The notes beneath the pieces are model-generated. The model made no database searches. It was not told the origin of the DNA and saw nothing but the letters and a program-made list of their open reading frames with translations. A stretch of DNA of 44,865 bases, taken from positions 1 to 44,865 of the forward strand of contig NZ_QREV01000042.1 of assembly GCF_003363715.1 (NCBI RefSeq), read 5' to 3'. Position 1 is the first letter of the stretch. Every line of letters begins with the position of its first letter. Source of the stretch: Parabacteroides acidifaciens (GTDB lineage: Bacteria; Bacteroidota; Bacteroidia; Bacteroidales; Tannerellaceae). This document shows, in pieces, positions 3,766 through 41,941 of the stretch. Position numbers and translations under genes: made by a program.

Positions 3766-3922
3766 AGGGGGTGTGTCAAAAGTAAGTTCTAACGCTTTAG
3801 CGTGTCATTGCGGGCTTGACCCGCAACCTCATCCTAAGCTGATTTACAGTAATTAGTATGAGATGGCGGGTCAAGCCCGCCAGGACACAGACGCTATAAA
3901 TAGGACTTTTGACACATCCCCT
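3766..3922. repeat. composite palindromic (BIME-like) intergenic element
   Basis: An 18-bp outer stem (3766-3783 with 3905-3922, one G-T pair) encloses two inverted copies of a REP-like unit. Each unit is a short GC stem around a 5-base CTTGA/TCAAG loop: one at about 3809-3825, the other at about 3866-3882. The outer arm shares 20 identical bases (3773-3792) with the complement of 13002-13021 in the terminator after the M28 peptidase. It lies between two plus-strand genes and could end transcription after nahK. Confidence 0.75.
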
Positions 3923-6500: not shown

Positions 6501-6569
6501 TTGTCTGTTTATTCTTTAATATTCAACAATAGCAAAAAAGAAAATAACTGTCTTTGCTCCGGGCATCGG

Positions 6570-6638
6570 ATGTTACCACATAAGACACTACGATGTTACC
6601 ACATCGGACACTCGGATGTTACTACATCGTACAGTCCG
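6570..6638. repeat. three tandem 23-base palindromic units between pump and channel genes
   Basis: Units start at 6570, 6593 and 6616 with an exact 23-base period. Each carries ATGTTAC-C/T-ACAT, an inverted repeat ATGT/ACAT with a 4-base spacer. In the middle unit the arms extend to CGATGT/ACATCG. They lie just after the CusA-like stop codon and before the TolC-like gene on the minus strand. This could be an operator array, an RNA processing site or a mobile repeat. Confidence 0.8.
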
Positions 6639-13061: not shown

Positions 13062-14594
13062 TCAATATCCCGGATTCTGATACATTAATTCCGGATTCAA
13101 CTTATACTCGTCGAAAGGAATCGGGTAATAGATATCCTTCGTGCCGAAATTCTTTATATTGGAGATGCCATAATCATCCTGTTTTTTATTATGGATGTAA
13201 GTAACCAACTCGTTCGCCGTAAAGAAGCGGAGCAAGTCGAACCAGCGTTGGTTCTCGAATGCCAGTTCAACCCGGCGTTCATGGAGGATTGCCAGTTTGA
13301 GAGTCGGGCATAAGGTCTTATAAACGACATTACTTTGCATTGCCGCATAACCCGGCATTCCGGCACGTGCACGCACCTCATCCAGATAACCGATAGCCGC
13401 CGTTTCGTTCCCCAGATACATATTGACTTCCGCCAGCATCAGGATAATATCGGCATAACGCATCAAGATCCAGTCGTTACCCCCATATCCCAGTGTCCCG
13501 GCAGCATCGCTGACGTCACGGAATTTGGTGATAAAATAGGATTTGGCAACCGCATCATCCGCATATTTCACCGACCATTCCTTACGGGAATCCGTTTCTT
13601 CATACTCCTTTACGATATCCGTATTCACATAATTACCGGCACCGGTCGATTTCTTCTGGGAGTTTATCGTTTCGCCTTTTGCCTGGTTGTTGGCAGCGAT
13701 GGAGGAGTAATAATCCTTATCCCCCTGTTTGTACACAATCTGGAAGATGATTTCCGGGCAGGTCGACTTCTTGGACACATCAAACACATCCTCGTACGGG
13801 ATTTCGCTCAGTGAACCAAACTTACGCATGCCGTAACACATCTCCAGATAGCTCTTCGCCTGCTGAAGATACGAATCCTTGTTTCCATCGGACAAGGTCG
13901 TCGCCATCGTCAGGTAGACCTGTCCTAACAATCCGCTGACAGCGGCTTTACAAGCCCGTCCCTTCCCCGACTCCGGCTGGATATCCGGCAGGTCGCTGTT
14001 CAACGCATCTTTCAGGTCCTGCACGATTTGAGCATACACGGTTTCTTTCTTTTCACGGAAAGTATTGGCATTGATCTCCTCCGTTGTCGTCAGGTAAGTC
14101 GTGACCAAAGGCACGTCTCCCCATTTGCGTACCAGATGAAAATAGACTAAGGCGCGAACAAATTTGGCTTCCGCCTTATATCTCGTGCGGACCGCCTCAT
14201 CTTCAAAGGCTACCTCATCTATATAAGTCAGCAGGAAATTACTGCGGGTGACTGCCGTAAACATCGCCACCCAATGGTTCTTCAAATAGGTATTACTGGG
14301 CAACAAGGAGAAATCGGTAAACTGGAAAGGCTCACCTGAGCTGGACTGGTTATCCAGACGTCCCATATTGTCCGAGCGCTCTTCCGTGAACATGGTACTC
14401 CCTTCTCCCAGGCAGTTGTTGCTCCTTAAAGCCAGATAAACGCCATTCAAGGCCCGTTCTGCATCATTTTCCGTCTGGAAATAAGATTCGGCAGCGATCT
14501 TGTTCGGGTTTTCCTGTGTCAGGAAACCTTCGCACGAAGAAAAGGATAAAAGCATGGCTGCCAATGCCGTCGATATTATAATATTCTTTTTCAT
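13062..14594 (-). CDS. SusD/RagB family outer-membrane nutrient-binding lipoprotein
   Basis: Surface lipoprotein that caps its SusC partner and captures a glycan or peptide ligand. The 510 residues start with a lipoprotein signal, lipidated at C21 (LSFSSC), followed by the family opening FLTQENPNKIAAESYFQTENDAE. TPR-like helices fill the first half, including VRALVYFHLVRKWGDVPLV, a classic SusD segment at about 146-164. The end has WILMRYADIILMLAEV, ERRVELAFENQRWFDL and YYPIPFDEYKLNPEL, all family landmarks. It is 18 bases downstream of susC. With no glycoside hydrolase nearby, the ligand is unknown. Confidence 0.95.
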   Translation of the reverse strand: MKKNIIISTALAAMLLSFSSCEGFLTQENPNKIAAESYFQTENDAERALNGVYLALRSNNCLGEGSTMFTEERSDNMGRLDNQSSSGEPFQFTDFSLLPSNTYLKNHWVAMFTAVTRSNFLLTYIDEVAFEDEAVRTRYKAEAKFVRALVYFHLVRKWGDVPLVTTYLTTTEEINANTFREKKETVYAQIVQDLKDALNSDLPDIQPESGKGRACKAAVSGLLGQVYLTMATTLSDGNKDSYLQQAKSYLEMCYGMRKFGSLSEIPYEDVFDVSKKSTCPEIIFQIVYKQGDKDYYSSIAANNQAKGETINSQKKSTGAGNYVNTDIVKEYEETDSRKEWSVKYADDAVAKSYFITKFRDVSDAAGTLGYGGNDWILMRYADIILMLAEVNMYLGNETAAIGYLDEVRARAGMPGYAAMQSNVVYKTLCPTLKLAILHERRVELAFENQRWFDLLRFFTANELVTYIHNKKQDDYGISNIKNFGTKDIYYPIPFDEYKLNPELMYQNPGY

Positions 14595-20168: not shown

Positions 20169-22091
20169 ATGAAGAAAAGAGTCCTGTTCCTCCTCGCTCT
20201 GTTTGTCATCTGGTTGCCGATGTTAGCGATCCAGAAGCCGGTGTTCATGCTGTATCACCATGCCTTAGCGAACGGATGTTCGCTAAGCGATTACCTACGG
20301 GTAATCACACACGGGTTACTGCTGGACTGCACGATAGCCGGGTATCTGACAGCGTTGCCGCTGCTGATGACGTTAGTGTCGGTATGGCTGCCGGGGAGGT
20401 TTTACAGGAAACTGCTGAAAGGCTACTTCGGAATTATGGCCGTACTGATCGCAGCTATCTTTGCAGTAGATGTGGCACTGTACGGTTACTGGGGGTTCAG
20501 GCTGGATGCAACGCTTTTCTTCTATCTGCAATCGCCCGGCGATGCGATGGCGAGCGTTCCGATGGGGCAGTTCTTCGGCCAACTGCTGATGTTCATTGTC
20601 TATGCATCCGGAATATACTGGCTGTTAAAACAGTTTATCGTGCCGCTCTTTCCCGAAACGCCGGTACGGAAGCGGTTAGGAGGAAGCCTAATTGTTCTCA
20701 TGTTGGGCGGGATACTCTTTATACCGATACGGGGAGGCGTGACGACTTCGACTGCGAATGTGGGAATGGTCTATTTCAGTAAGAACCAATTCCTGAACCA
20801 TTCGGCGATCAATCCTTGTTTCAGCCTGCTTGCATCGCTCAGCAAACAGCAGGATTTTGCGGCGCAGTTCAATTTCTTTCCGGAGGAGGAACGGAGGGAG
20901 ATAATGGGAAGCCTGTCCCCGCACTCGATGCGGGGTCGCACTGGGACAGACCTTGTTGAGACGGATTCACTGTCCGCGTCTTTGCGATCCCGCATCGAGT
21001 GCGGGAACGAGAAAGGTGATACGATACCGAAAGTCCTTCTGAATACGCAGCGTCCGAATATCCTGATTGTTATTATGGAAAGCTTCTCGGCGAATGTTGT
21101 CGGGGCTGTCGGTGGTGATTCTATCGTTACACCGAACCTGAACAGGCTCAGCAAAGAGGGAGTGCTTTTCACGAATATGTATGCAAGCTCATTCCGCACG
21201 GACCGGGGAATCGTGTCGGTATTGAATGGTTACCTGGCACAGCCGACCACTTCCATCATGAAGTATCCGGCCAAGAGCCAGACACTGCCGTCTATTGCCC
21301 GAAGTCTGACAAACGAAGGATATGTAGCCGACATGCTGTATGGTGGAGATATCAACTTCACCAATATGCAAAGCTATTTCTTCAGCTCCGGTTACAGCCG
21401 GATCACGGCAGACCGCGACTTCCCGCTCACCAGCCGCCTCAGCAAATGGGGAGCGAACGACGACGTCACCTTCCGCCATTTATATGAAGATATCAAGAGT
21501 CGTGACAGCCAAAAGCCCTGGCTCAGCACCTTCCTGACGCTTAGCAGCCACGAGCCGTTCGAAGTGCCTTACCACCGGTTGGATGATATGGGACTGTATG
21601 CGAACTCGGTTGCCTTCACGGACAGTTGCATCGGTAACTTTATCGACAAGCTGAAAGAGCTGCCGGTATGGAAGAATACGTTAGTTATTTTTGTTTCCGA
21701 CCACGGATATCCTTATCCGAAAGATGTGGTCAACTACGAACCCCGCCGCTATCATATCCCGATGTTATGGATCGGCGGTGCCGTGAAAGAGCCGGTCGTC
21801 ATCGACAAATATGCCAACCAAACAGACCTTGCCGCCACGTTGCTGAACCAATTAGGGATCGGGCACGACTCTTTCACATTCAGCCGCAACGTGCTTAGTC
21901 CCGATTATCCCGAATATGCCTTCTATACCTATTCGAACGGCTTCGGGTTTATCGACAGCACCGGCATCTCCGTCTACGACAATGAAGGGAATAAGCCTCT
22001 GATCGAAACGCCACACGAAGGTAGTGAACAGCGTCTCCGCAAAGGGAAAGCCCTGCTGCAAACGTTGTATGACGATTTAGGCAGCAGGTAA
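20169..22091 (+). CDS. LTA-synthase/sulfatase-family membrane protein with in-frame palindromic insert
   Basis: Inner-membrane protein with about five N-terminal membrane segments (residues 5-210) and a periplasmic alkaline-phosphatase-fold domain. Relatives transfer phosphoglycerol, phosphoethanolamine or similar groups. Catalytic landmarks are E304 (IVIMESF), the nucleophile threonine T344 (SSFRTDRG) and D511-H512 (VSDHGYPY), so the enzyme looks active. A linker at about residues 248-281 is encoded by a palindromic repeat (20913-21010) and reads as low-similarity sequence (SPHSMRGRTG, then SLRSRIECGN). The insert keeps the frame and sits between the membrane and catalytic parts. The gene starts 4 bases after the ABC-F stop, so the two are co-transcribed. 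The substrate is unknown; Gram-negative members usually modify lipid A, glycans or periplasmic glucans. Confidence 0.9.
   Translation: MKKRVLFLLALFVIWLPMLAIQKPVFMLYHHALANGCSLSDYLRVITHGLLLDCTIAGYLTALPLLMTLVSVWLPGRFYRKLLKGYFGIMAVLIAAIFAVDVALYGYWGFRLDATLFFYLQSPGDAMASVPMGQFFGQLLMFIVYASGIYWLLKQFIVPLFPETPVRKRLGGSLIVLMLGGILFIPIRGGVTTSTANVGMVYFSKNQFLNHSAINPCFSLLASLSKQQDFAAQFNFFPEEERREIMGSLSPHSMRGRTGTDLVETDSLSASLRSRIECGNEKGDTIPKVLLNTQRPNILIVIMESFSANVVGAVGGDSIVTPNLNRLSKEGVLFTNMYASSFRTDRGIVSVLNGYLAQPTTSIMKYPAKSQTLPSIARSLTNEGYVADMLYGGDINFTNMQSYFFSSGYSRITADRDFPLTSRLSKWGANDDVTFRHLYEDIKSRDSQKPWLSTFLTLSSHEPFEVPYHRLDDMGLYANSVAFTDSCIGNFIDKLKELPVWKNTLVIFVSDHGYPYPKDVVNYEPRRYHIPMLWIGGAVKEPVVIDKYANQTDLAATLLNQLGIGHDSFTFSRNVLSPDYPEYAFYTYSNGFGFIDSTGISVYDNEGNKPLIETPHEGSEQRLRKGKALLQTLYDDLGSR
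20913..21010. repeat. REP/BIME-like palindromic element inside a coding gene
   Basis: Two 24-base arms (20917-20940 and 20983-21006) are inverted copies with 22 matches. Each arm also folds on itself (CCCGCA-TCGAG-TGCGGG type). A further stem, CTGTCCC/GGGACAG, lies at 20913-20919 and 20943-20949. From arm to arm it spans 90 bases, a multiple of three. The right arm is identical over 24 bases to 41880-41903, between genes. Confidence 0.88.
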
Positions 22092-39579: not shown

Positions 39580-39681
39580 ACCGGACGCAGATTTCACAGA
39601 AGACGCAGAATAACGCAGACAATATTTATTACAAATAAAAGTCTGCGTTTTTCTGCGTCTTCTGCGTTGTCTGCGTCCGGT
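39580..39681. terminator. long bidirectional hairpin built from ACGCAGA repeats
   Basis: Two 41-base arms (39580-39620 and 39641-39681) pair with five differences around a 20-base loop. Each arm is made of repeats of ACGCAGA. It lies between the convergent DUF4251 and NagB-like genes and probably ends both transcripts. Confidence 0.82.
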
Positions 39682-41727: not shown

Positions 41728-41879
41728 ACAATTAATCCACGAATCCAGCTTTACAAACCATTTAAAAAATCAATACATCGATAGGAAGTATATATAAAAC
41801 AGGTTTTGGCAGAGGGAAAAACTGTAAATGAGATAGAGCCTGACGGCTCTGTTGAGGATTGTGACACCGGTCGTCCCTA

Positions 41880-41941
41880 TGCGATCCCGCATCGAGTGCG
41901 GGAACAGGGGAATCATCCTTGTCCCCGTGTTTGACACGGGG
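41880..41941. repeat. REP-like palindromic pair between genes
   Basis: 41880-41903 is identical to the right arm of the element inside the LTA-synthase-like gene. 41923-41930 pairs with 41934-41941 (CCCCGTGT/ACACGGGG), giving a second, related GC hairpin with a TTGA-type loop. Confidence 0.8.

Follow-up and report, generated by a model that had tools for sequence, protein, structure and literature searches.

Within the window, the 44,865-nucleotide stretch of Parabacteroides acidifaciens DNA analysed here, a palindromic repeat lies inside the open frame of a membrane sulfatase-family gene, and a relative of that repeat lies between genes. The features are as follows.

20169..22091, plus strand: LTA-synthase-like membrane sulfatase-family gene, 640 aa, with Pfam Sulfatase (PF00884) at residues 296-564
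20908..21015, no strand assigned: REP-dimer element, limits from covariance model R1; core 20915-21008, codons 249-280
20918..20934, plus strand: left REP hairpin, CCCGCA-CTCGA-TGCGGG
20941..20982, no strand assigned: spacer of 42 nt separating the two REP units
20989..21005, minus strand: right REP hairpin, an inverted copy of the left one; its 24-mer is identical at 41880-41903
41873..41940, no strand assigned: intergenic relative, with a REP unit of the same core at 41886-41902 followed by a second hairpin at 41924-41940 (CCCGTGTTTGACACGGG)
3767..3921, no strand assigned: 155-bp sister MITE with ends GGGGGTGTGTCAAAA and TTTTGACACATCCCC (of the 15-bp GGGGRTGTGTCAAAA type), two TGTC-tagged REP-like hairpins and stops in six frames

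Pfam describes the product of 20169-22091 as Sulfatase; the LTA-synthase name is an assumption, taken over from the first-pass annotation. The N-terminal part of the protein is helical and presumably transmembrane. Two other repeats occur in the window, namely a CGCAGA-rich 41-nt inverted repeat at 39580-39681 (88% complementary, with 20 nt between the arms) and, at 6569-6637, three tandem 23-nt repeats that start with GATGTTACCACAT or a close variant of it.

The palindrome described in the first-pass annotation is real. Its arms at 20917-20940 and 20983-21006 pair at 22 of 24 positions, span 90 bases in all and lie inside the open frame, while a wider pair of arms (20915-20940 and 20983-21008) is 92% complementary; the exact identity of the right arm over 24 bases to 41880-41903 is likewise confirmed. 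The insert codes for residues ~249-280 with the frame open throughout. What the first-pass annotation did not record is that each arm, taken singly, is itself a hairpin (CCCGCA-CTCGA-TGCGGG), which makes the window element a REP dimer, i.e., two self-complementary hairpins set face to face. A single strand of 20908-21015 is predicted to fold into one long hairpin, with z = -7.3 as RNA and z = -6.2 as DNA, and 0/200 shuffles equalled the fold in either case. Against the family model the window copy reaches 83.8 bits (E 8.8e-16), a value to be read with the fact that this copy is also among the model's 19 training sequences, and a scan of the window against Rfam gave 0 matches at the gathering score.

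An AlphaFold2 prediction for the window protein with 39 relatives has a mean pLDDT of 87.1, and values below 50 are confined to residues 121-123, 254-272 and 278-284, the last two ranges being the insert and the stretch directly after it. The blocks flanking the insert average 91 and 95. Together with the copies in other genes and the remnants in relatives (both described below), the prediction supports the first-pass reading of a mobile REP/BIME-like repeat that entered, with the frame kept, the linker joining the membrane part to the catalytic part, the predicted fold on either side being undisturbed.

A chance palindrome, or a low-complexity linker that converged on this form without any mobile copy, would suit a linker whose length and sequence differ greatly from one orthologue to the next, but it is refuted by the copies found elsewhere and we give it next to no credence. 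The arm 24-mer is abundant, as the first-pass proposal of a mobile repeat implied, with 49 matches at up to 3 mismatches in the 5.1-Mb genome and 0 for the reversed control. A covariance model (R1) built from 19 paired copies, the window copy included, has matches at no fewer than 58 distinct sites in the same genome (115 hits with both strands counted), and its match at the window copy covers both arms and the spacer. Two stock insert peptides, VPALDAGPQ...AIPRQARE and LSPRLTRGR...RSRVKRGN, recur in unrelated proteins, which also speaks against chance. Model sites were found in four relatives as well, with at least 44 in G011, at least 16 in G014, at least 5 in P. massiliensis (G013) and at least 4 in G008, and none among the candidates scored in G012 and G001; all these counts are lower bounds, given that 150 of ~840-1430 candidates were scored per genome (150 of 1390 in the window genome). 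Among 118 genomes drawn from the host's family, 13, its own included, have a model match at E 1e-8.

Across the copies, the REP stem (CCCCGCG/CGCGGGG) reaches 7 bp at most and has no AT start, the loop is CTTGA or CTCGA, the stem is preceded by TGTC, TGTT or CGTT, and the sites are paired as inverted dimers. These traits invite comparison with the CGTC-tagged REPs, which the accessible part of PMC3733652 places in five phyla, Bacteroidetes among them, with some families nested in larger palindromes. The inverted dimers, the 5-base loop (within the 4-5 bp of CGTC REPs) and the presence of some copies in genes are shared with that group, and the TGTC-like tag may be, the group's terminal tags being CGTC, TGTC or CCTC, whereas the stem of 6-7 bp without an AT start differs from the CGTC stems, which are 8-9 bp long and nearly always begin with AT. 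CGTC REPs also have a short unpaired tail, in most cases CCA. Judged by eye, the 155-bp sister element is closer to the CGTC-REP description.

Many of the intergenic copies belong to a larger unit. The 15-bp end GGGGRTGTGTCAAAA has 84 matches at up to 2 mismatches (reversed control, 5), and inverted pairs of ends fall 8 times at exactly 141 bp, 8 times at 155 bp and six more times at 133-176 bp; a further 39 ends are unpaired, some of them at contig ends. The 141-bp form encloses the window-type REP dimer and occurs in many intergenic copies. Terminal inverted repeats and a fixed length, the marks of a MITE, are thus present in the intergenic copies and absent from the window copy, which may be a bare REP dimer and not the remnant of a MITE. 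No target-site duplication was legible at the inserts examined, because the linkers are too diverged.

The two lengths differ in what they permit. Of the six frames, one is fully open in one of two 141-bp copies that were read and two are in the other, while both copies of the 155-bp form that were read have stops in all six, and none of the 8 fetched sites of the 155-bp family (154-176 bp) lies in an ORF. The length of 141 bp, a multiple of three, together with the open frames would enable this form, unlike its 155-bp sister, to enter genes. A similar contrast is described for the Correia/NEMIS elements of Neisseria, where, in the accessible part of PMC2229807, a 107-bp form is open and found in genes and a 155-bp form is almost only intergenic; there the genus and the element are others, and we compare the two contrasts by description. 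It is possible, if rather doubtful, that the 141-bp MITE acts as a coding-compatible mobile linker that repeatedly supplied or replaced inter-domain linkers of Parabacteroides with two stock peptides, possibly through hairpin-driven gene conversion and not by plain transposition.

A ~125-bp subfamily of REP dimers was also seen, with 12 sites of 123-161 bp (e.g., G000:C92:11886-12010) and flanks that recur, such as gaactatcccgttcc and gggatagctcactttttctta. Its 12 sites include none inside a frame that passes the rule by which we assigned copies to genes, namely that the frame run open for 40 aa or more to each side of the site.

By this rule 13 of the 58 sites in the window genome pass, and 10 of these lie in Pfam-supported proteins, nine of them beyond the gene considered in the first-pass annotation. 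The ten hosts are two outer-membrane beta-barrel proteins, an RND/ABC fusion, a PAP2 phosphatase, the glutamate synthase large subunit, the window sulfatase, a hydrazine-synthase-like/SUMF1 protein, a BlaR1-type M56 protein, an HU-type DNA-binding protein and an M1 peptidase. Left out, without a Pfam test, were C133:6772-6882 (165 aa), C78:20834-20944 (183 aa) and C105:388-498 (134 aa). In addition, a single hairpin with 3 mismatches lies at C105:7190 inside a frame of more than 1100 aa. The midpoint of the insert falls outside the Pfam matches in 10 of 10 hosts, for which the outside fractions multiply to 0.0012, a guide value since an insert within a domain might itself weaken the Pfam match.

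In G011, 42 of 44 sites were examined and 6 pass the rule, of which 3 were counted as in genes; those at 867788, 1031706 and 2538786 were left out for their short frames. All 16 sites of G014 were examined, with 3 passing and counted (including a 167-aa frame at 105693), and 0 of the 4 sites examined out of 5 in G013 are in genes. Some of these insertions are the same, G011:3883689 corresponding to G014:3573789 and G014:105693 matching the uncounted G011:2538786. Over 16 in-gene copies from the three genomes with such copies, the left arm is in phase 0 in 8 and in phase 2 in 8, and never in the phase with a stop. We rejected these counts as independent proof, since keeping the ORF alone rules out the stop phase; some of the 16 copies are also common by descent.

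The sites outside the 125-bp subfamily are in genes at a rate of 10/46, compared with 0/20 for the 12 subfamily sites and the 8 sites of the 155-bp family together (p 0.019) and with the 12 subfamily sites alone at p 0.078. The coding bias of the former is only suggestive, the family of the long intragenic copies C70 and C77 being uncertain.

In-frame insertion into several unrelated genes is the hallmark of the Rickettsia palindromic elements (RPE), which, in the accessible parts of PMC10969869 and PMC2229807, are ~100-150 bp long and lie in frame in many unrelated protein genes, and it is what we find here. By description, the present element resembles them in being an in-frame palindrome that is apparently tolerated in several unrelated conserved genes and also occurs between genes. 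It differs in belonging to another phylum, in having 10/58 model sites in Pfam-supported genes and in its many intergenic copies with 15-bp terminal repeats. REPs inserted in frame have also been described inside tnpA-REP genes of subclass 2.4 (PMC6006769, accessible part), where the host is a transposase gene; here the hosts are ordinary genes, and no such transposase was found. Taken together, the accessible parts of PMC10969869, PMC2759123, PMC2229807 and PMC3733652 report intragenic in-frame REPs or MITEs from Rickettsia, enterobacteria, Neisseria, O. terrae and others. The first-pass remark that such elements are rare outside Rickettsia is not supported, as intragenic REPs alone are reported from many species in what is accessible of PMC3733652.

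The history of the window insert can be read at the same site in relatives. In P. massiliensis the left hairpin is present in decayed form (CCCGTACCCGATACGG), followed by some of the spacer, and G014 retains 16 of 17 core bases of the left hairpin; both have lost the right half, and across the aligned part the window gene exceeds each of the two by 45 nt. G011 carries a shorter and less certain remnant, and the frame is open at the site in all three. Among 38 of 80 orthologue loci that were aligned, where linker length and sequence vary freely, insert-like residues occur only in P. massiliensis (L032). When all 80 loci were searched for the hairpin core (up to 4 mismatches), it turned up inside the gene only in that same near relative, and seven other loci had chance-like matches outside the gene. 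Distant orthologues carrying the residues without the palindrome, which would have spoken against the first-pass proposal, did not appear. From the site remnants and the orthologue search together, one entry in a common ancestor of close species is therefore most likely, followed by in-frame decay in some of them.

The first-pass annotation had further suggested that the repeat was domesticated as protein sequence. In its full form this would give the peptide a present role in the LTA-synthase-like protein, be it spacer length, binding or control by a hairpin at the RNA level, and the open frame in P. massiliensis, G014 and G011, the very stable RNA hairpin and the 92% complementarity of the window arms would all agree with it; the last of these, retained while P. 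massiliensis eroded, may reflect some conservation. We nevertheless consider it improbable. The relatives keep eroded parts only (in G011 a short remnant at most), the right half having been lost from P. massiliensis and G014 with the 45 nt, and the insert lies mostly below a pLDDT of 50. The in-gene copies of the family are also the more diverged ones, with a median score of 79.2 bits vs. 114.5 for the others (n = 10 vs. 48, the 48 including the three dropped frames C133, C78 and C105; p 0.004), as decaying sequence would give. Given the eroded state of this site in relatives, the insert has the look of sequence that is tolerated while it decays.

Four of the ten host genes (the window sulfatase, GltB, the M1 peptidase and the SUMF1-like gene) were compared with relatives that have no insert. 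The insert of glutamate synthase (GltB) is missing from 8 of 8 relatives read, and in that linker one of them, G012, carries another, different insert (L256 1724-1814), with imperfect 18-nt inverted arms that are 83% complementary and a fold of z -5.3 that 0/200 shuffles equalled, so that the same permissive site was possibly used twice. The M1 peptidase insert is missing from 4 of 4 aligned relatives, and its copy adjoins a 15-bp MITE end (2 mismatches) within the coding sequence at C1:207389-207403. For the SUMF1-like gene the linker differs in 6 of 6 aligned relatives and the window genome's own gene is 39-45 nt shorter there, from which the element seems to have replaced the host linker. 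As for the RND/ABC fusion, the insertion of the window genome is common to G014, while in G011 a different loop of that RND gene is the one interrupted (L311 5103-5213). The gene, as read at L311 and L206, carries insertions in different loops in different species.

The first-pass annotation looked to a RAYT (TnpA-REP) transposase as the mover, which would make the element a REPIN mobilized by its cognate enzyme. The inverted pairs of REP hairpins are of the expected kind, and one Y1_Tnp gene is present in the window genome (L001 / G000:C61, around 13711-14046). This gene, however, is flanked by a different repeat (agccctgtaagggcggcagat..., read by eye) with the REP element absent around it, and its motifs (DHVH, WQ, YILNQEEHH) are close to the subclass 1.2 motifs in the table of PMC6006769, whose accessible part assigns that subclass no REP type. 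Across four genomes, 8 loci surrounding 7 Y1_Tnp genes were searched for the REP core (up to 3 mismatches), which occurred at none of them, and no Y1_Tnp match exists in either of the element-rich relatives, G011 (44 sites) and G014 (16 sites). As no Y1_Tnp gene among those examined is flanked by the same REP, we reject a RAYT as the mover for these genomes; the proposal is largely refuted there and very improbable overall. The Y1_Tnp gene and its own repeat possibly constitute a different REP-like system.

Nor did the end pairs of the window genome reveal an autonomous IS bounded by these 15-bp ends, the sole pair at transposon distance (2853 bp) proving to join the ends of two separate small elements. 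A dedicated transposase is absent as far as the Y1_Tnp family was searched, as in the CGTC-tagged REPs, for which the accessible text of Di Nocera et al. (2013, PMC3733652) gives none.

The explanation that we consider very probable is that a dispersed non-autonomous REP dimer inserted once into a disordered linker, was kept open by selection on the host gene and is now decaying. The ~98-bp palindrome would be a copy of this element, which in many intergenic copies forms the inside of the 141-bp MITE. Movement may have been due to an enzyme acting in trans, and a single insertion would have taken place before the window species parted from its close Parabacteroides relatives. The gene could stay open because two of the three hairpin phases are open, because the net length is divisible by three and because nearly any residues would be acceptable in the linker. 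The frame would then be held by selection on the host gene while the insert, probably near-neutral, decays. The window species would have retained both hairpins, with relatives losing parts through in-frame deletion or divergence, and the same filter may account for the remaining in-frame copies of the genome. Counting against this explanation, the window copy lacks the 15-bp ends, neither a legible target-site duplication nor an autonomous partner was found, the window arms are still 92% complementary although P. massiliensis has eroded, and the apparent replacement of host linker sequence by the SUMF1-like and M1 copies is not predicted by plain transposition.

The element of Bacteroidota is new; the phenomenon itself is known from the RPEs of Rickettsia, intragenic REPs and coding MITEs. 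A search of the openly accessible literature (subscription papers and supplements lying outside its scope) on Parabacteroides and palindromic repeats gave, among the matches listed, mostly work on CRISPR, phages or microbiomes, one on palindromic intragenic REP elements of Bacteroidetes returned PMC3733652 only, and the main text of a 2025 REP survey (PMC12306157) makes no mention of Parabacteroides.

With the present case, in-frame palindromic insertion reaches a gut genus for which dozens of close relatives have been sequenced, so that one can date and test how inserts are gained, shared and lost to decay. Two MITEs with identical ends, one compatible with coding and the other not, also occur there side by side. 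For the annotation of Parabacteroides proteins the case carries a warning, in that recurrent linker peptides such as VPALDAGPQ or AIPRQARE are repeat DNA and not domains.
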